Shown piece after piece: positions 17,660 through 55,267 of a stretch of DNA of 64,000 nt (position 1 is the first letter of the stretch; each line of letters begins with the position of its first letter). Below the pieces are notes generated by a model. That model saw nothing but the letters and a program-made list of their open reading frames with translations. It made no database searches and was not told the origin of the DNA. Origin of the DNA: Allocoprobacillus halotolerans (lineage in GTDB: Bacteria; Bacillota_I; Bacilli_A; Erysipelotrichales; Coprobacillaceae); assembly GCF_024399475.1 (NCBI RefSeq), contig NZ_CP101620.1:1903608-1967607 (forward strand), written 5' to 3'. The position numbers were made by a program, and so were the translations under genes.

Positions 17660-18654
17660 TTTCTTCAAAAAATCTGCAACAAAACAAGGTGTTTATTCCC
17701 TATATGAAGTGGAAGTTGAGAAAATCTAAACTTTTTTTGAGAAATATGACGGAAATTCATGATTAGTGGACAGTGTTATGCGAAAAGAAGAAAATCTTTT
17801 CATTCTCAACTTAACATTTGGTAGTTGCCGTTCCCTATATGGAGCAAAGAAAATCTTTCATTCCACAGTTGGCAGTTACGGCGTTGCATGGGTAGTTAGG
17901 GTGTGAAAAGAAAATCGGATTTTTTCATCATCAACTTAGCAGAATGACACTTTCTTTCCCTATATGGTACAGGATAAGAAAAAAGTTTTGAAGATTGGCT
18001 ACGCTTCTGCTCTTTTCCAATGCGGTATATAGGAAAGACGATTTTCTTCTTTCGTGTTCTTTGACAACTGAATAAAGCAGTTCAATACGTTTGACAGACA
18101 GCGAGCCGTCGAAACAGATACGCCATGACCTTTCCCCTGCAAAAGCGAGCGACAACCTATCTGTGTTCCTGTAAAAGATTTGTTCTCTTTTATCGCCATG
18201 ACCTGTCCTGTCTGATAATGATACTCCCGTACAGCCACAGCTTGAGCGTTCAGAGCGTCGCACGCAATGGGTACGGCTACATAAGAACTATGCAGAGGTG
18301 GAACTCCTGTAGGCTATGACAAAAGCCGTTGAATTACTTAGAAAAGATTTTTACAGAAAGGGGGTATGTGTTATTGCTGATATTGTAAAAACAAGGTAGG
18401 AAAAGACAAATAATAAGCGTGGCATTGGCAACAGAGGAAAAACAAAGATTGTTGTAAAAGAGCATTTTTCCGAAAAGGGAAAGACAATGGAAGAACTTCT
18501 GACGGATGTTATGCTGGAAAAAGCAAAGCAGACAATCGCATAAAATCGGTGCAGTTGTAAGAAATAGATTGAATGACAAAAAGTACCCATGTTATACTTT
18601 ACTTGCAAGCAGGTATTGTAAACACGGGTTAGTTATAAAGGAGGATAACTGACA
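17660..18654. other. About 1 kb of degenerate element DNA
   Basis: No intact gene. TTCCCTATATG or a near copy recurs about three times (near 17696, 17830 and 17959). Short coding-like scraps on the plus strand include a C-terminal piece ending at 18310 (QLERSERRTQWVRLHKNYAE) followed at once by ATG 18317 (MTKAVELLRKDFYRKG), and a tail ending at TAA 18541 (EELLTDVMLEKAKQTIA). They look like remains of small accessory ORFs upstream of the recombinase. The minus-strand ORFs here look spurious. Confidence 0.5.
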
Positions 18655-43795: not shown

Positions 43796-45375
43796 TTTGA
43801 CTTTCGGTTTTTTGCATTCTTTTTTGAAGGGTATGTCTTGTTGTTTATTGTCATAACCCTTGTTTTCTTATCTATATCATCTTTTTTGTTTTTGTTCTCT
43901 TTTTATTGTAGCTGAAAAAGTGTCATTTTCATGACCTTTTTTATTATTTACTATATGTTCATTTTATAGTTTCAGTTGCAGCTGCCTGTATTCCTGCTTC
44001 TCTCTTATATTTTGAAACTCCTTGATTCCCTTTTGTGCATATTTTAATATTTCCTGTATCCCTTTACTGATCTGATAGCACCAGTAATATCTCTTTCCTT
44101 TAAGCGATTTGCTTCTCTCTATCATCTTTATGACCAGTAATTTCTTGTCTACTTTCTCTGCCAACAGTGTTATATGCCCTATATGCATCATCAATATCGT
44201 ATTCAATACATTTATTGATTTCATCGTCCTTACTCTTATATTTTCAAAACCATACTGATTCTTTTTGAATCTGAATTTCTCCTCGATTCGCCACCTTGAC
44301 ATATATGCCCTCACTATCTTATGCACATCTCTTTTATTCCTGATCTCTCTATTCGTTAAAAGCATCATCGGTTTTTCTTCACTTAATCCATACACAATGA
44401 CTAGATTTAATATCCTTCCCTTTTGTGATGGCAGTTCCACTCTCGTATGTGATACATAGACTTCACTGTCTTCCTTAGAAAAATACATGTTCATCTTAAT
44501 CTTGCCTTTTCTTCTTTTGGCGATTTCTCCTACTTTCTTTGGCTTCCCTTTAAACAATAATGTTCTATTTTCTTTGAGTCTGATGATGAAATCATCTGCA
44601 TTATGATTTTCATCTATGAAGTAATCATAAAATACATTGGCATCATATCCTCTGTCACATACAAATGTACATCTTTCAGGAATGAGAGATTTGACATATT
44701 TTATGCTCTTTATTGTTTCATCGTTCATTGACTTGAATCCTTCACTTTCAGTTGAATAGATATGGCTATACAAAGATATTGGATGATGTTGATCCTGTGT
44801 GAGGGCAGTTGCCTCACATACATGGTATCCAGGATAAATGTCATCCTTAAGTGAGGAAGCATCCCTGACCATACAAAGATCTTCAAATTTTCTTCCATAT
44901 TTTTTGATGATTTCACTGTTATCAAGTAAAATGATCCTGTCTTCGCTAAGATGCTTGATAACCATATCATTATAATTGGATTTCATTTGGTTCATTGCTT
45001 CATCATCAAATTGAGCCAAATGATTGGATAATCTGTCAATTGTATAATTGAGCTTGATATTTTCATCAAGAGCTCTGGCAATATCGCTAAGTAGAACACT
45101 TTGACTTCTTGCAAGACCAAACATCATGTCCATGACAAACTTGGCAGCAGGTTTATCAAGACTGTCTGATAATTTATTAGAAAAATTGACAATTTCTCTT
45201 TTCGTTTCATATAGATCTGTGGTAAAATAACTCATGGAAAATCCCTCCTAAATTTTGTTTATTGAGATAAAATTATTATAACATTTTAGAGGCTGATTTT
45301 CCTTATAAATAAAGCAAAACAGGCAATTTGTGAATAACTTTTTACCTGTTTTTTATTTTTTTACCGAAACTCAAA
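43796..45375 (-). mobile_element. IS4-like insertion sequence, copy 2 (1,580 bp)
   Basis: Same ends (TTTGACTTTCGGT, inverted TTTGAGTTTCGGT) and length as copies 1 and 3, with 8-bp duplications TATAATAT. Differs from copy 1 by only a few bases. Inserted in a membrane-protein gene. Confidence 0.9.
43964..45235 (-). CDS. IS4-family transposase, copy 2
   Basis: 423-residue DDE transposase identical in protein sequence to copy 1; coding differences are silent. Catalytic motifs as in copy 1 (LLDNSEI, FVCDRGYD, RWRIEEKFRFKK). Near identity among the three copies indicates recent spread in this genome. Confidence 0.9.
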   Translation of the reverse strand: MSYFTTDLYETKREIVNFSNKLSDSLDKPAAKFVMDMMFGLARSQSVLLSDIARALDENIKLNYTIDRLSNHLAQFDDEAMNQMKSNYNDMVIKHLSEDRIILLDNSEIIKKYGRKFEDLCMVRDASSLKDDIYPGYHVCEATALTQDQHHPISLYSHIYSTESEGFKSMNDETIKSIKYVKSLIPERCTFVCDRGYDANVFYDYFIDENHNADDFIIRLKENRTLLFKGKPKKVGEIAKRRKGKIKMNMYFSKEDSEVYVSHTRVELPSQKGRILNLVIVYGLSEEKPMMLLTNREIRNKRDVHKIVRAYMSRWRIEEKFRFKKNQYGFENIRVRTMKSINVLNTILMMHIGHITLLAEKVDKKLLVIKMIERSKSLKGKRYYWCYQISKGIQEILKYAQKGIKEFQNIREKQEYRQLQLKL

Positions 45376-47084: not shown

Positions 47085-47093
47085 TGGTATAAT
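47085..47093 (+). promoter_or_regulatory. his operon promoter (extended -10)
   Basis: TGG-TATAAT at 47085-47093, 22 bases before the leader peptide ATG; the -35 is poor. Confidence 0.6.
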
Positions 47094-47115
47094 GATAAAA
47101 AATGAGGTGATATTT

Positions 47116-47172
47116 ATGAAAAAGACAATTTTAAACAAACAATTTCATCACCATCATCATTGGAACACTTAG
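47116..47172 (+). CDS. hisL: his operon leader peptide
   Basis: 18-residue ORF MKKTILNKQFHHHHHWNT with five consecutive His codons (47146-47160), preceded by a strong GAGGTGA ribosome site and an extended -10 promoter. It ends 121 bp before hisZ, with mutually exclusive stem-loops and a terminator in between. Ribosome stalling at the His codons when charged His-tRNA is scarce would favour the anti-terminator. The layout is that of the classic enterobacterial his attenuator. Leader-peptide control is unusual in Bacillota, where his genes are more often under T-box control. Confidence 0.85.
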   Translation: MKKTILNKQFHHHHHWNT

Positions 47173-47187
47173 GGTTATATCTATGAA

Positions 47188-47276
47188 AGATACAGCCCAT
47201 TTTACATATAGTTTATAAATGGGTGTATCTAATGACTTAATATTTGATGGACGAGTCATTAAGACTCGTCTTTTTT
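47188..47276 (+). promoter_or_regulatory. his attenuator: pause stem, anti-terminator and terminator
   Basis: AGATACAGCCC (47188-47198) pairs with GGGTGTATCT (47221-47230, one bulge). AATGACT (47231-47237) pairs with AGTCATT (47254-47260) as anti-terminator. GACGAGTC (47250-47257) pairs with GACTCGTC (47263-47270), followed by six T, as terminator. The last two share 47254-47257, so they exclude one another. Confidence 0.8.
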
Positions 47277-47293
47277 GTTGAAGGGGGATTAAG

Positions 47294-48258
47294 ATGGAAG
47301 AATTTAAGTATTTGATACCAGAAGAAAGTATTGATGCGATTATGGATAACGTATCGAAGTTAAGAGAGATTGAAAAAGATTTAAGAGCTATTTTTGTAGA
47401 ACATGGTTATTTAGAAGTGTTAATGCCTTCTTTTGAATATGTTGATTTGTATAATGATATGGATATTGGCATAGATGAAGAAAAGATGTTTCAATATGTC
47501 AATTATGAAGGAAAGCGTGTTGCATTAAGAGTTGATTATACAGTGCCTTTAGCGAGATTGTATTGTTCACAAGATGAAAATGGTGAAAAAAGATATTGTT
47601 ATTTTGGGAAAGTTTATCGTAAAGAAAAAGACATAAAGGTAGAAGCAGTGAGTTTTTTCAGGCTGGAATTGAATTGATTGGGAAATCTGGAATGTTTGGT
47701 GATTTAGAATGTTTGGAACTTGTTTTACAGACAATGAAATGTTTAAAGTTACAAAATATTCGTATTGAAATGGGTTCAGCCAAATTTTATAACCGTTTGG
47801 TAGAGATTGTTGATGATGAGCAATTTGTAGATATTTTAAAAAGACGTGATTTAAGTGCCATGAAAATATTTGTTGAAAGTCATGATTTTGATAAGAGTTT
47901 GCAAACTTTGCTTATGCATTTACCTCAGGCATTTGGTGATGTACAAGTTTTATATGATGTCAAAAATCAAATTCAAGATCAATTATTAAAAGAGGCCATT
48001 GAAGATATGATTCAATTATATGAAAAAATACCTGCCAAAGAGCTTTTGACTTTTGATTTGGCGATGACACCGATGATGAAATATTATACGGGTATCATGT
48101 TGAAAGGTTATTCTCCATATAGTGCGCAACCCATTATGAATGGTGGACGTTATGATCATTTGATGAATCGTTTTCATCGTAAAGTGCCAGCAATTGGGTT
48201 TAGTTATGATTTAAGTCATATTTTAAAAGCGTTAGAAAAAGAGGAGGAAGAGTCATGA
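47294..48258 (+). CDS. hisZ: ATP phosphoribosyltransferase regulatory subunit HisZ (frameshift)
   Basis: Catalytically inactive histidyl-tRNA synthetase paralogue needed by short-form HisG. The restored 321-residue protein has class II synthetase-like blocks: [46 protein letters not shown] and the C-terminal [11 protein letters not shown] and PAIGFSYDL. The frame breaks at TTTTTT 47653-47658; one more T gives [10 protein letters not shown]. No anticodon-binding domain, as expected for HisZ. First gene of the operon, with AAGGGGGATTAAG upstream. Overlaps hisG by 4 bases. Confidence 0.88.
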
Positions 48259-48881
48259 TTAAAATAGCCATTACAAAAGGACGTATTGAAAAACAAGTCT
48301 GTCAACTCTTATCAAAACAAGGTTTTGATATGGAACCCGTTATTCATAAAGATCGCGAGTTAATGATTGAAACCCAAGATGGTCTTTCAATGATTTTTGC
48401 GAAAGCTAATGATGTTTTAACCTTTTTAGAACACGGGATTGTTGATGTTGGTTTTGTTGGTAAAGATACTTTAGAAGATAGTGATTTTCAAGATTATTAT
48501 GAAATGCTGGATTTAAATATTGGGAAATGTTATTTTGCGTTAGCCGCTTATCCTGAATATCGTGATAAAGTTTTTAAACGTCGTCAACGAATTGCTTCTA
48601 AATATACAAAAGTGGCGAAAGATTATTTTCATCAAAAACAACAGGATGTCGAAATTATTAAATTAGAAGGTTCGGTGGAACTTGGACCAGTTGTTGGGTT
48701 AAGTGATGCGATTGTGGATATTGTGGAAACTGGTTCAACCCTTAAAGCTAATGGTCTTGAAATTATTGAAAAGATTAGTGATGTATCAACGAAGATGATT
48801 GTTAATAAAGTGAGTTTAAAATTTAAAAAAGATGAGATATTTCATTTGATTCAAATGTTGAAGGAGGAAGAAGAATGTTAA
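48255..48881 (+). CDS. hisG: ATP phosphoribosyltransferase, short form
   Basis: First enzyme of histidine synthesis: ATP plus PRPP to phosphoribosyl-ATP. 208 residues, the short form that needs HisZ, which is encoded directly upstream. Motifs: [21 protein letters not shown], and the PRPP-binding [15 protein letters not shown]. It has a GGAGGAAGAGTC ribosome site inside hisZ and overlaps hisD by 7 bases. Confidence 0.95.
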
Positions 48882-50176
48882 AGGTATATGATGTACAAGG
48901 ACAATTAAAAGATGTTGTGAAAAAGTTTTCAACACGTAAAACAGAGATTTCTAAACAAGTCAATGATACAGTGATGGAAATGATTGATAATGTTGAGAAA
49001 AATGGAGATCAGGCCATTATGAAATATTGTCGTCAATTAGATGGCTTTATGATTGAAAATCCACAAGACTTACTTGTTTCTAAACAAGAAATTTTAGATG
49101 GTGTGACAGCTGTTGGTAAAGATTTTATGCGTATTTTAGAACGTACCAAAGAACAGTTGACAGATTTCCACCAACATCAAGTTGATCGTTCATGGTCTAT
49201 CTATAAAGAAAATGGTGTGATGATGGGGCAGGTTGTACGTGGTTTGGAAAAGGTGGCTTTATATGTACCAGGTGGTACAGCAACATATCCATCAACAGTT
49301 ATGATGAACGCTATTCCAGCAAAATTGGCTGGTGTAAAAGAATTAATCATCATTACACCAGTGAAAGCCGATGGAAAAGTCAATCCTTCAATTTTGGCAG
49401 CGGCTTATGTCTGTGGTATTGAACGTATTTATAAAGTAGGAGGAGCTCATGGTGTAGCTGGTGTTGCGATAGGAACAAACACCTTACCAAAAGTCGATAA
49501 GATTGTTGGACCAGGAAATATTTACGTTGCGACGGCGAAAAAATGTTGTTATGGACGTGTGGATATTGATATGATTGCAGGACCAAGCGAAATCTTGATT
49601 GTTGCTGATGAAAAAGCCAATCCAAAATATATTGCGGCTGATTTAATGAGTCAGGCTGAACATGATGCTTTAGCCAGTGCGATTCTTGTTACAACATCTT
49701 TGTCTTTAGTCAAAAAAGTTAATGAAGAACTCAAAAGACAGATTCAAACATTATCAAGAGCGAAAATGATTGAAGAATCACTAACAAATTATGGTGGAGC
49801 TTTTTTAGTGAGTTCTATTGAAGAAGCTTTTCAAGTATCCAATGAATTTGCACCAGAACATTTAGAAGTGCTGGTAGATAATCCAATGAATACTTTGCCA
49901 TTGATTTATAATGCGGGTTCTATCTTTTTAGGGGAATATACACCTGAACCATTGGGTGATTATATGTCAGGCACAAACCATGTGTTACCAACTGGTGGAA
50001 CAGCTAAGTTTTATAGTGCTTTAGGGGTTTATGATTTTGTGAAATATTCATCTTATAGTTATTATCCAAAACAAGTTTTAAAGACTTTTAAAGATGATGT
50101 GATGACATTTGCGAAAAAAGAAGGATTAGATGCACATGCTAATAGTATTGGTGTGCGTTTTGAGGAGGAAGAATAA
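48875..50176 (+). CDS. hisD: Histidinol dehydrogenase
   Basis: Oxidises L-histidinol to L-histidine in two NAD-dependent steps. 433 residues with [15 protein letters not shown], the signature region ([25 protein letters not shown]) with zinc and catalytic residues in [13 protein letters not shown] and APEHLEV, and [11 protein letters not shown] near the end. GGAGGAAGA precedes the ATG. It ends at the hisB start (overlap of one base). Confidence 0.96.
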
Positions 50177-50763
50177 TGCGACAGAGTCAAATCAAACGTC
50201 AAACGAATGAAACAACAATAGAAATGTCCATCAATCTTGATGGACAAGGACAAGCAACCATTGATACTGGTGTTGGTTTCATGGATCATATGTTAGAATT
50301 ATTTGCTTTTCATAGTGGTATTGATTGTACCATTACGTGTATAGGTGATTTAAAAGTAGATAGTCATCATACTGTTGAAGATTTAGGAATTGTTTTAGGT
50401 GAATGTTTAAAAGAAGCATTGGGTGATAAAAAAGGTATTTATCGTTATGGACAAATGGCAATTCCAATGGATGAAACATTAGTCACCACAACCTTGGATT
50501 TGAGCGGGCGACCTTATCTTGTTTATCAGGCCAATTTACCTTGTCAGCAGTTAGGTAATTATGAAACAGAAATGACCAAAGAGTTTTTTAAGGCTGTTAG
50601 TGATCACGCATTGATGACTCTACATATCCAACAAAACTATGGTGAAAACACACATCATATTATTGAAGCTATGTTTAAAAGTTTTGCCAGAGCTTTAAAA
50701 CAAGCTATTCGTATTGATGAAAACCATAAGGAACAGATTGTTTCTTCTAAAGGGGTTTTATAA
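50176..50763 (+). CDS. hisB: Imidazoleglycerol-phosphate dehydratase
   Basis: Sixth step of histidine synthesis. 195-residue single-function enzyme with the two His-rich metal motifs DTGVGFMDHML, DSHHTVED and EAMFKSFARALKQA. There is no phosphatase domain, so histidinol-phosphatase must be encoded elsewhere. Starts one base inside hisD's stop. Confidence 0.95.
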   Translation: MRQSQIKRQTNETTIEMSINLDGQGQATIDTGVGFMDHMLELFAFHSGIDCTITCIGDLKVDSHHTVEDLGIVLGECLKEALGDKKGIYRYGQMAIPMDETLVTTTLDLSGRPYLVYQANLPCQQLGNYETEMTKEFFKAVSDHALMTLHIQQNYGENTHHIIEAMFKSFARALKQAIRIDENHKEQIVSSKGVL

Positions 50764-50764
50764 T

Positions 50765-51369
50765 ATGATTGTGATTATTGATTATCATGTAGGGAATTTG
50801 ATGAGTGTCCAAAATGCTTTGATGAAACTTAACATGGATGTTATCGTGAGTCGTGATCATGATGTTATTCGCCAAGCCAAAGGGATTGTTTTACCAGGTG
50901 TAGGAACTTTTCCGGTCGCTATGGAACATTTAAAACGATATGATTTGATTGATATTTTAAAAGAAAGACAACAGGCTGGGATTCCGATTTTAGGTATTTG
51001 TTTAGGAATGCAAATTCTATTTGAAAAAGGATATGAAGTCTATCCTACAAAAGGCTTAGGTTTTTTAAAGGGTGAAGTCAAACGTATGGAAGTTCAAGCA
51101 AAAATTCGCATATGGGATGGAATGAATTAAACATCACAACACAATATCCTTTAATGAAATATATTCATAACGGCGATTATGTGTATTTTGTCCATTCTTT
51201 TATGGCATATCCTAGTGATGATGAACTGATAGCCTATTGTGAGTATGGGCAAGAAAAAATTACCGCTGTTGTTGCGAAAGACAATGTCATGGGCTGTCAG
51301 TTTCATCCTGAAAAAAGTGGAGCCATTGGCAAGAAAATTTTATTAGCGTTTAAGGAGATGGTGCAATGA
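50765..51369 (+). CDS. hisH: Imidazole glycerol phosphate synthase, glutaminase subunit (frameshift)
   Basis: Provides ammonia to HisF. Class I amidotransferase of 201 residues after repair: IDYHVGNLMSVQNAL, the oxyanion strand GIVLPGVGTFP, catalytic Cys in GICLGMQILF, and the His-Glu of CQFHPEKSG. The frame breaks at a single C (51107) in AAAATTCGCAT; CC gives IPHMGWNEL, the conserved HisH motif. The nucleophile is in the first part and the His/Glu in the second, so a real frameshift would kill the enzyme. ATG 50765 follows hisB directly. Overlaps hisA by 4 bases. Confidence 0.9.
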
Positions 51370-52103
51370 TTATAATTCCAGCAATTGATTTAAAAAACGG
51401 TGAAGCTGTCCGTTTATATAAAGGTGATTACAAACAAAAAACAGTTTATAGTAGAACTCCAGAAACATTAGCTTTACAATTTCAAGACATGGGAGCTAAA
51501 TATTTACATGTTGTGGATTTAGATGGAGCCAAAGAAGGTAACACAACCAATTTACAGACAATTCAAAAAATCCGTCAGACAATTACCATCCCTATGGAAG
51601 TTGGTGGTGGGATTCGTGATGAGAAAACTGTGTCATTATATCTTGATGAAATAGGTGTTAATCGTGTGATTTTAGGAACAGCAGCCATTGAAAATCCTGA
51701 TTTTTTACAAGCTATGTTAAAACGATATGGATCAGAAAAGATTGTGGTTGGGGTGGATATTCAAAATGAATATGTGGCTACATCTGGATGGTTAGTGACA
51801 ACCAAAGTGCATTACTTAGATTTTTTAAAAACACTAGAAACAATGGGTGTTCGTTATATTATTTGTACGGATATTTCTAAAGATGGCACATTACAGGGAC
51901 CAACATTTTCCATTTATCAAAAGATTCAAGAAACAACATCTTTACAATGTATTGTATCAGGTGGTGTCAAAGATCAAGATGATATTCTAGAAGCTGCAAA
52001 ACAAGGCTATCATGGATGTATTGTTGGAAAAGCTTATTATGAAGGAAAAGTGGATTTAAAAGAGGTGATAGGATGCTTGCCAAAAGAATCATCCCTTGTT
52101 TAG
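51366..52103 (+). CDS. hisA: ProFAR isomerase
   Basis: 245-residue TIM barrel that isomerises the aminoimidazole ribotide intermediate. [20 protein letters not shown] with catalytic Asp8, [25 protein letters not shown] with the second Asp, and [11 protein letters not shown]. The C-terminus (CLPKESSLV) extends into hisF, a 31-bp overlap. Many operons have the hisA stop right at the hisF start, so this tail may be a recent read-on. Confidence 0.95.
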
Positions 52104-52839
52104 ATATTAAAGATGGAAAAGTCGTTAAGGGTGTAAATTTTGTAGGATTAAAAGATGTTGGTGATCCTATTGAAATCGCTAAAAGATATGATGAACAATG
52201 TGCTGATGAAGTGGTTTTTTGGACATTACTGCCACTTATGAAAATCGTGATATTATTAAAGATTTAATTCAAAGAGCAGCCAGTGAACTTTCCATTCCTT
52301 TAACAGTTGGTGGTGGCATTCGTACACTTGATGATTTTCGTATGATTTTATCAAGTGGTGCTGATAAAGTTTCTGTTAACTCGGCTGCCATTCAAAATCC
52401 ACAGTTAATTCAACAGGCATCGGATGAATTTGGAGTTCAATGTGTTGTTGTGGCTATAGACGCTAAAAAACGTGAAGACAATTCAGGTTATGATGTCTAT
52501 ATTGCTGGTGGTAGAAAAAATACGGGATTAGATTTGATTGAATGGGTCAAACAATGTGAAAGTTTAGGTGCTGGAGAAATTTTACTCACTTCAATGGATA
52601 AAGATGGCACAAGAGATGGCTTTGATATTGATATGTTAAATGCAGTGCTTGATGTTGTGTCGATTCCAGTCATTGCCAGTGGTGGCTGTGGAGATCAAAA
52701 TGATATTGTTGAAGTTTTTGAAAAAACAAATTGTGATGGCGCATTAGCAGCTTCCTTGTTTCATTATCAGGAAGCCACGATAGATGATGTCAAAGCCTTA
52801 TGTGCCAAACATCATATACCAGTAAGGAGGAACATATGA
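52073..52839 (+). CDS. hisF: Imidazole glycerol phosphate synthase, cyclase subunit (frameshift)
   Basis: Forms imidazole glycerol phosphate and AICAR using ammonia from HisH. The restored 255-residue TIM barrel has [20 protein letters not shown] (catalytic Asp11), [26 protein letters not shown] (second Asp) and [11 protein letters not shown]. The frame breaks at TTTTTT 52215-52220; one more T gives [14 protein letters not shown]. It overlaps hisA by 31 bp and hisIE by 4. The AAGGAGG inside its 3' end serves hisIE. Confidence 0.9.
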
Positions 52840-53480
52840 AACCAGATTTTCAAAAAGGAAATGGCTTAGTTCCAGCAATTGTCCAAGATTATCAGACAAA
52901 TGCTGTATTAATGTTGGCTTATGTCAATGAAGAAGCCTATGAAAAGATGTTAGAAACGAAGGAAACTTATTTTTATTCACGATCACGTCAAGAATTATGG
53001 CATAAAGGAGAAACATCAGGTCATTTTCAATATATTCAAGGAATGTATTTAGATTGTGACAAAGATACTTTATTAATTATTGTTAAACAAATTGGGGTGG
53101 CTTGTCATACCGGTGCTTATTCATGTTTCTTTCATGAAATCATGCCTTATGTGACTTCTCGCAATATTTTCCATGAAGTCTATGATGTCATTGCTGATCG
53201 AAAGGAACATCCTGTTGAAAAATCATATACCAATTATTTATTAGATCAAGGTGTTGATAAGATTTGTAAAAAAGTTGGTGAAGAAGCCAGTGAAACAATT
53301 ATTGCAGCAAAAAATCAAGATAAAGAAGAATTAATTGGTGAAATCAGTGATTTATTTTATCATGTACTTGTTTTGATGTATCAACAAGGAATTCAAGTAG
53401 AAGATATTGAAAGAAAGCTACAAGATAGACACCAAGTGACGGGAAATAAAAAAGATTTTCATCAACGTGGAGATTATTAG
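52836..53480 (+). CDS. hisIE: Bifunctional phosphoribosyl-AMP cyclohydrolase / phosphoribosyl-ATP pyrophosphatase
   Basis: Second and third steps of histidine synthesis in one 214-residue chain. The HisI part (1-110) has [18 protein letters not shown] and metal-binding Cys/His in LDCDKDTLL and [10 protein letters not shown]. The HisE part (120-214) has [19 protein letters not shown] and [21 protein letters not shown] precedes the ATG. Last gene of the operon, followed by a terminator; hisC and a histidinol-phosphatase are absent. The last 48 codons plus terminator recur at 56202-56367. Confidence 0.95.
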
Positions 53481-53687: not shown

Positions 53688-53760
53688 TTTGAGTTTCGGT
53701 AAAAAAATAAAAAACAGGTAAAAAGTTATTCACAAATTGCCTGTTTTGCTTTATTTATAA

Positions 53761-53827
53761 GGAAAATCAGCCTCTTAAATGTTATAATAATTTTAGATCA
53801 ATAAACAAAATTTAGGAGGGATTTTCC
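53761..53827 (+). promoter_or_regulatory. Inverted repeat able to mask the IS4-like transposase start in read-through RNA
   Basis: GGAAAATC (53761-53768) lies upstream of the -10 (53783-53788). Its complement GATTTTCC (53820-53827) ends directly at the ATG and abuts the AGGAGG ribosome site. Only transcripts entering from outside would contain both arms. Present in all three copies. Confidence 0.5.
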
Positions 53828-55099
53828 ATGAGTTATTTTACCACAGATCTATATGAAACGAAAAGAGAAATTGTCAATTTTTCTAATAAATTATCAGACA
53901 GTCTTGATAAACCTGCTGCCAAGTTTGTCATGGACATGATGTTTGGTCTTGCAAGAAGTCAAAGTGTTCTACTTAGCGATATTGCCAGAGCTCTTGATGA
54001 AAATATCAAGCTCAATTATACAATTGACAGATTATCCAATCATTTGGCTCAATTTGATGATGAAGCAATGAACCAAATGAAATCCAATTATAATGATATG
54101 GTTATCAAGCATCTTAGCGAAGACAGGATCATTTTACTTGATAACAGTGAAATCATCAAAAAATATGGAAGAAAATTTGAAGATCTTTGTATGGTCAGGG
54201 ATGCTTCCTCACTTAAGGATGACATTTATCCTGGATACCATGTATGTGAGGCAACTGCCCTCACACAGGATCAACATCATCCAATATCTTTGTATAGCCA
54301 TATCTATTCAACTGAAAGTGAAGGATTCAGGTCAATGAACGATGAAACAATAAAGAGCATAAAATATGTCAAATCTCTCATTCCTGAAAGATGTACATTT
54401 GTATGTGACAGAGGATATGATGCCAATGTATTTTATGATTACTTCATAGATGAAAATCATAATGCAGATGATTTCATCATCAGACTCAAAGAAAATAGAA
54501 CATTATTGTTTAAAGGGAAGCCAAAGAAAGTAGGAGAAATCGCCAAAAGAAGAAAAGGCAAGATTAAGATGAACATGTATTTTTCTAAGGAAGATAGTGA
54601 AGTCTATGTATCACATACGAGAGTGGAACTGCCATCACAAAAGGGAAGGATATTAAATCTAGTCATTGTGTATGGATTAAGTGAAGAAAAACCGATGATG
54701 CTTTTAACGAATAGAGAGATCAGGAATAAAAGAGATGTGCATAAGATAGTGAGGGCATATATGTCAAGGTGGCGAATCGAGGAGAAATTCAGATTCAAAA
54801 AGAATCAGTATGGTTTTGAAAATATAAGAGTAAGGACAATGAAATCAATAAATGTATTGAATACGATATTGATGATGCATATAGGGCATATAACACTGTT
54901 GGCAGAGAAAGTAGACAAGAAATTACTGGTCATAAAGATGATAGAGAGAAGCAAATCGCTTAAAGGAAAGAGATATTACTGGTGCTATCAGATCAGTAAA
55001 GGGATACAGGAAATATTAAAATATGCACAAAAGGGAATCAAGGAGTTTCAAAATATAAGAGAGAAGCAGGAATACAGGCAGCTACAACTGAAACTATAA
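53828..55099 (+). CDS. IS4-family transposase, copy 3
   Basis: 423-residue DDE transposase, same as copies 1 and 2 except one Lys to Arg change (EGFRSMND). All catalytic residues are kept (LLDNSEI, FVCDRGYD, RWRIEEKFRFKK), so it should be functional. AGGAGGGATTTTCC precedes the ATG. Confidence 0.9.
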   Translation: MSYFTTDLYETKREIVNFSNKLSDSLDKPAAKFVMDMMFGLARSQSVLLSDIARALDENIKLNYTIDRLSNHLAQFDDEAMNQMKSNYNDMVIKHLSEDRIILLDNSEIIKKYGRKFEDLCMVRDASSLKDDIYPGYHVCEATALTQDQHHPISLYSHIYSTESEGFRSMNDETIKSIKYVKSLIPERCTFVCDRGYDANVFYDYFIDENHNADDFIIRLKENRTLLFKGKPKKVGEIAKRRKGKIKMNMYFSKEDSEVYVSHTRVELPSQKGRILNLVIVYGLSEEKPMMLLTNREIRNKRDVHKIVRAYMSRWRIEEKFRFKKNQYGFENIRVRTMKSINVLNTILMMHIGHITLLAEKVDKKLLVIKMIERSKSLKGKRYYWCYQISKGIQEILKYAQKGIKEFQNIREKQEYRQLQLKL

Positions 55100-55267
55100 A
55101 ATGAACATATAGTAAATAATAAAAAAGGTCATGAAAATGACACTTTTTCAGCTACAATAAAAAGAGAACAAAAACAAAAAAGATGATATAGATAAGAAAA
55201 CAAGGGTTATGACAATAAACAACAAGACATACCCTTCAAAAAAGAATGCAAAAAACCGAAAGTCAAA

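Follow-up and report, generated by a model that had tools for sequence, protein, structure and literature searches.

A probable histidine-sensing leader-peptide attenuator upstream of the his operon of Allocoprobacillus halotolerans and its family

The his operon and the elements of its leader

The his operon of Allocoprobacillus halotolerans is located within the analysed window, a stretch of 64,000 nucleotides of a genome consisting of a single contig of 2.93 Mb. Downstream of an intrinsic terminator, the gene order is hisZ-hisG-hisD-hisB-hisH-hisA-hisF-hisIE, and the operon holds histidine biosynthesis genes only (Table 1). The reading frames of hisZ, hisH (50714-51369) and the 5' end of hisF (near 52103-52219) are broken, and hisS of the same genome (G000:C1:2330155-2331365) is split like hisZ. 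The hisS gene should be essential, and the breaks in these genes are most likely assembly indel errors rather than marks of pseudogenes. Programmed frameshifting was rejected as the likeliest reading of hisZ because four congeners encode an intact hisZ of 320 codons and the window copy is one base short. Two identical IS4-like elements of 1580 bp, inverted with respect to each other (43796-45375 and 53688-55267), flank the operon together with the gene upstream of it. Movement of the operon as a composite transposon between the two copies was considered and rejected; the elements appear to have inserted in place, because congeners share the gene order without the IS. The window also contains a match to the Rfam pemK RNA (RF02913, 49 bits) at 18215-18312 on the forward strand.

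The leader precedes hisZ and has an extended -10 promoter element, the first base of which is the start that the initial annotation had given for the leader (47085). Motifs of the TGGTATAAT type are kept in the orthologues 20-30 nt upstream of the leader start codon. The annotation had proposed a His-rich ORF with five His codons and its own ribosome-binding site, and both are found ahead of the first gene of the operon, with the tandem codons specifying the amino acid made by the operon's own products (hisZGDBHAF-IE). In the orthologues, the positions of the run are occupied by His only, with rarely one Arg inside, and both CAT and CAC are in use.

The RNA from the end of this ORF to hisZ can be divided into segments that form competing helices. 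Helix 1:2 (GGGUUAUAUC/GAUACAGCCC) is a hairpin whose first nucleotide is also the final one of the stop codon, and it is followed by a conserved AUUUUG-like stretch, which reads AUUUUA in the window. Segment 2 pairs alternatively with segment 3 in helix 2:3 (GAUACAGCCC.../...GGGUGUAUC). Helix A:B joins the coding tail of the ORF (His-Trp-Asn-Thr-stop) to UGGGUGUAUCUAAUGA, which overlaps the 5' arm of the antiterminator. The core of the antiterminator (helix 4:5) is AATGACT (47231-47237) paired with AGTCATT (47254-47260), and the terminator (helix 5:6), which reads GGACGAGTC-ATTAA-GACTCGTCT as DNA (47249-47271, followed by the T run), shares segment 5 with it. Helix A:B competes with 2:3 over segment 3 and with 4:5 over segment 4, and 4:5 competes with 5:6 over segment 5. 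Antiterminator and terminator are mutually exclusive with one common strand, and the sensor codons lie in or next to the strand that controls the antiterminator. The 500-nt region surveyed holds one terminator-like site against 0.1 expected by shuffling, and the leader RNA of 179 nt folds better than each of 200 shuffled versions (z -4.3).

The antiterminator and the overlapping terminator with its T run had been assigned correctly from the beginning, and two pairings needed correction. The stem that fits the one first put forward for pausing (GATACAGCCCATTT/AAATGGGTGTATC) corresponds to helix 2:3, an alternative to the conserved hairpin adjoining the stop codon; the pause-type hairpin is helix 1:2, which probably acts as a pause hairpin. 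The coding-tail helix A:B was missing from the earlier scheme.

Table 1. Features of the his operon leader and the operon downstream of it (positions are those of the window)
Feature	Sequence or description	Coordinates	Strand	Basis or remark
Extended -10 promoter element	TGGTATAAT (TGnTAnnAT)	47085..47093	+	sequence; orthologues
Ribosome-binding site (SD) of leader ORF	GAGGTG	47104..47109	+	conserved in alignment
Leader peptide ORF	MKKTILNKQFHHHHHWNT, 18 codons, stop TAG	47116..47172	+	His run in 38/38 leaders read
Sensor codons	CAT CAC CAT CAT CAT (tandem His, n=5)	47146..47160	+	sequence; orthologues
Segment A, coding tail	UCAUUGGAACACUUA (last His, Trp, Asn, Thr, stop)	47157..47171	+	partner of B
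Segment 1, pause-type hairpin 5' arm	GGGUUAUAUC	47172..47181	+	overlaps last base of stop codon; nearly invariant
Segment 2, pause-type hairpin 3' arm	GAUACAGCCC	47189..47198	+	alternative partner is segment 3
Segment 3, alternative partner of segment 2	AAAUGGGUGUAUC	47217..47229	+	its GGGUGUAUC is the 5' half of B
Segment B, anti-antiterminator	UGGGUGUAUCUAAUGA	47220..47235	+	pairs with coding tail A
Segment 4, antiterminator 5' arm	UAAUGACU	47230..47237	+	pairing over 38 genomes
Segment 5 (C), antiterminator 3' arm	AGUCAUUA	47254..47261	+	also in terminator 5' arm
Intrinsic terminator	GGACGAGUC-AUUAA-GACUCGUCU and U-run	47249..47276	+	terminator search; covariation
hisZ	first gene of controlled operon	47294..48258	+	frame broken near 47640, one base relative to congeners
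Remainder of operon	hisG, hisD, hisB, hisH (split), hisA, hisF (5' end frame broken), hisIE	48255..53480	+	

Conservation of the leader and covariation of its helices

The his operon was located in the genomes of the family by means of HisG, and hisG is present in 40 of the 43. A script found 38 leaders directly among these 40 genomes, all of them orthologous and distributed over 16 genera. Each of the 38 has an SD sequence, an ORF of 16-23 codons, three to five tandem His codons and an in-frame stop, so that the His-rich ORFs predicted to stand before the his operons of related genomes were encountered in every leader read. The tail after the last His codon is one to four residues long and the stop is nearly always UAG. 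A covariance model built from the alignment matched 39 of the 43 genomes, exactly once each, and recovered one leader that the script had missed. This conservation is the main proof of the element. Of the four genomes without a match, three have no hisG (G007, G008, G017), and in the fourth the contig breaks off within the upstream gene (G039); among the 43 genomes searched, the leader is present wherever the sequence upstream of hisG was readable. Homologues of the leader were found in Thomasclavelia, Kandleria and Sharpea independently of Ashniev et al. 2022.

The model gave no match at E <= 0.01 in any other family of the order (316 genomes in all). When 395 genomes were drawn from the whole class, two weak matches turned up in another family (E 0.005 and 0.009). 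Both are His leaders (MTNAIFLQVHHHKT; MFTILISVHHHHSTT) directly upstream of a long ORF that occupies the position of hisZ and is followed by a hisG-like ORF. Three MAGs labelled Clostridia, with HisG identity of 62-66%, encode ...VHHH leaders before hisZ; the RNA sequence differs and the alternative hairpins are similar. Leaders with His runs were observed before hisZ (L098, L101, L102) and before an apparent hisIE (L104) in MAGs labelled Clostridia or Clostridium, with peptides ending in ...VHHH, ...VHHHF and ...LHHHCRCTGIA and with apparent alternative hairpins and terminators. These four were not matched confidently by the covariance model of the window's family.

The A:B duplex of the window has a predicted energy of -15.5 kcal/mol, whereas shuffled versions of A average -5.6 and none of them was as good. 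Over the 38 leaders, the duplex has a mean z of -3.6, and the pairing is not convincing in three of them (G026, G009 and G010). In the alignment, 87.8% of the cells of the terminator-state structure are paired, compared with 33-44% when the structure is slid by 1-3 columns, and nine of its pairs have changes on both sides; within the terminator hairpin itself this is the case for 5 of 8 counted pairs. The antiterminator state is paired in 93.0% of cells. For the segment 4/5 helix, the value over 38 genomes is 96.7%, including a compensatory change from G-C to A-U.

Co-evolution of the arms was examined by permuting them between genera (2000 permutations), a design that takes account of composition and coding. 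Arms exchanged in this way paired as well as the matched arms in 0/2000 cases for A:B, 1/2000 for 2:3, 10/2000 for 4:5 and 0/2000 for 5:6, fractions that are not exact probabilities because the permutation ignores the relatedness between genera. Three unrelated segment pairs exhibited no clear effect in the same test, and hairpin 1:2 is uninformative here because it is almost invariant. As read from these aligned leaders, the predicted helices of the antiterminator, the terminator and the coding tail co-vary between genera, and the arms of A:B, 2:3, 4:5 and 5:6 co-evolve. Loss of the ORF and its pairings in relatives, which had been named at the outset as a finding that would speak against an attenuator, was looked for and is not the case, as the ORF is kept in 38/38 leaders and the helices co-vary. 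A pairing of segment 1 with segment 4 (GGUUAU/AUGACU) was suggested by the fold of a truncated window and was rejected; it is weak in leaders with GGUUUUAUC, and 132/2000 permutations were as good, so that matched arms are not clearly better.

Predicted mechanism and alternative modes of control

The leader very probably controls the his biosynthetic operon as a transcription attenuator whose leader peptide senses histidine, which upholds the original his attenuator interpretation with the two pairing corrections described above. RNA polymerase would start just downstream of 47093 and transcribe the leader ORF, and hairpin 1:2 beside the stop codon probably pauses the polymerase until the ribosome catches up. 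A ribosome covers about 12 nt of RNA downstream of its A site. When histidine, and with it charged histidyl-tRNA, is short, the ribosome would stall on the five His codons and cover A, while 1:2 could form ahead of it. Since the antiterminator's 5' arm is the pairing partner of coding tail A, the stalled ribosome would free that arm; B would remain unpaired, segment 4 would pair with segment 5, and transcription would proceed into hisZ (ON). When histidine is sufficient, the ribosome would reach the stop codon and cover A and segment 1, upon which 2:3 would pair and take the 5' part of B, or A would pair with B again after release. Segment 5 would then pair with segment 6, and transcription would stop at the terminator (OFF). 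Without translation, A:B would enclose 1:2, both helices would form and the terminator would stand (OFF).

Equilibrium thermodynamics was tried as proof of switching and set aside as weak, as the terminator nearly always wins: its mean advantage is 7-9 kcal/mol whichever ribosome state is considered, and it is favoured in nearly every leader and state. With the ribosome on the last His codon, as compared with the stop codon, the antiterminator is favoured in 24 of the 38 leaders and disfavoured in 7, and the directional support that the energy model lends to switching is weak. Because equilibrium favours the terminator in the ribosome states, the switch would have to be kinetic. Helix 4:5 is also able to form with the ribosome at the stop codon, as long as segment 6 has not yet been transcribed, and what exactly the ribosome does at this position is the least certain step of the mechanism.

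The same energies would suit a leader whose small ORF is translated and which does not sense histidine, serving as a constitutive premature terminator or as a general sensor of translation coupling. This is unlikely, since His codons, and no run of any other residue, are kept in all leaders of 16 genera, in one copy per genome and before the his operon, and since the switching strand is the His-Trp coding tail itself, which co-evolves with the strand it pairs with.

A somewhat smaller chance is given to a DNA-binding repressor acting at the promoter as the main control, with the attenuator only fine-tuning. A palindrome, TTGTATACAA, does lie within the his operon promoter in two genera, but it is absent from the his promoter in the window's genus. 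No PF01371 match indicating a repressor of the TrpR/HisR family was obtained in the window's genome, and no HisR-type core site (cacTTTAnnnnnnTAAAgtg operator) was found between 46000 and 48000.

The palindrome was followed as an observation in its own right. It occurs in the his promoter of 14 genomes of the two genera (upstream in L029-L031, L033-L036, L038-L040, L042-L044 and L046), always with nine matching bases, and is absent from the remaining leaders read. Its distance to the leader start codon downstream is 25-26 or 46-47 nt, and it lies after the -10 element in one genus and between -35 and -10 in the other. Two Thomasclavelia-like genomes also have it before genes that were named by eye as serC, citrate synthase and a sodium/amino-acid symporter, with two copies 38-39 nt apart before the apparent serC in both. 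In the window's genome, the palindrome precedes genes likewise named by eye as threonine synthase and aconitase. It is not enriched genome-wide over a reversed control. The palindrome is possibly the operator of an amino-acid regulator.

Control of the operon by a tRNA-sensing T-box or another known riboswitch, with the His-rich ORF as an incidental feature, is hardly tenable: T-boxes are common in the genome, with 21 matches above the cut-off, and his operons of other Erysipelotrichales are under their control (PMC9413887), but neither a T-box nor another Rfam family has a plausible match at the leader, and the ORF is conserved throughout the family. The absence of a T-box motif, already stated in the initial annotation, holds for the whole window, where the T-box covariance model (RF00230) has no match while its 21 matches in the whole genome show that the search works; the GGUGG antiterminator bulge does not occur in 47085-47294. 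The T-box of this genome with CAC (His) at the specifier place, as read from the alignment by eye, sits just before hisS and not before the his operon. From its location, hisS would be under T-box control and the his operon under that of the leader peptide.

The attenuator reading can be taken one step further. The leader may be an independently evolved two-sensor attenuator that is ancestral to the whole family and also present in at least one more family of the class, a proposal held as somewhat less than an even prospect. Segment A would signal that a ribosome stands on the His codons, and segment 1, at the stop codon, that a ribosome has finished; together they would let the RNA tell apart no ribosome, a stalled ribosome and a finished ribosome with one competing strand.

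Relation to known his leaders and significance

The leader of the enterobacterial his operon features tandem His codons, alternative hairpins, a terminator before the operon and a probable polymerase-pausing hairpin. The resemblance to this design noted at first extends to the logic only, as the RF00514 covariance model gave no match at the gathering score and none up to E 10. The window operon differs further in that it starts with hisZ, in that segment 1 abuts the stop codon, and in the number of tandem His codons (five in the window, three to five in relatives).

Closer counterparts have been reported within Bacillota. Ashniev et al. 2022 (PMC9413887) searched the upstream regions of Firmicutes his genes, where RF00514 had no match, and described attenuators with His leaders in six species of Erysipelotrichales, with Eggerthia, Erysipelatoclostridium, Catenibacterium, Coprobacillus and [Clostridium] as the listed genera. 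The present leader agrees with these in its order, its target operon, a short ORF with a run of three to five His codons, a terminator and antiterminator downstream, the lack of a T-box at the leader and an order without HisR, and it can be assigned to the same group. Massilimicrobiota, taken in the analysis as the window's genus, is absent from the table of that study. Naville & Gautheret 2010 (PMC2965389) described leader peptides with His codons upstream of hisZ and hisS* in bacilli; at the level of gene context, the likeness consists of a His-codon ORF before hisZ in Bacillota in place of a T-box, and the difference is that hisS of the window's genome keeps its T-box. The leucine-rich attenuator peptide of Staphylococcus aureus (PMC5794164) is likewise a case of leader-peptide attenuation of an amino-acid operon in Bacillota and differs in the amino acid and the operon. 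As the first two studies (PMC9413887, PMC2965389) reported His leaders, the attenuator is already published in kind. What is added is the genus, the survey showing the element across the family, its occurrence in a second family of the class, and the coding-tail helix together with the co-evolution of its strands; the supplementary alignments of PMC9413887 may already show this helix or the hairpin at the stop codon.

On the attenuator reading, ribosome-stalling attenuation of his operons would be a fixed feature of an entire family of gut Bacillota otherwise rich in T-boxes, and two mechanisms would split the work in one genome, with a T-box on hisS and a leader peptide on the his operon. The element has no Rfam family match, and the present alignment could seed one. 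The co-evolution of the coding tail with the downstream strand amounts to a set of ready-made natural compensatory mutants for tests of the mechanism. Most likely, the leader lets this gut bacterium turn on its genes for histidine synthesis when histidine is low.
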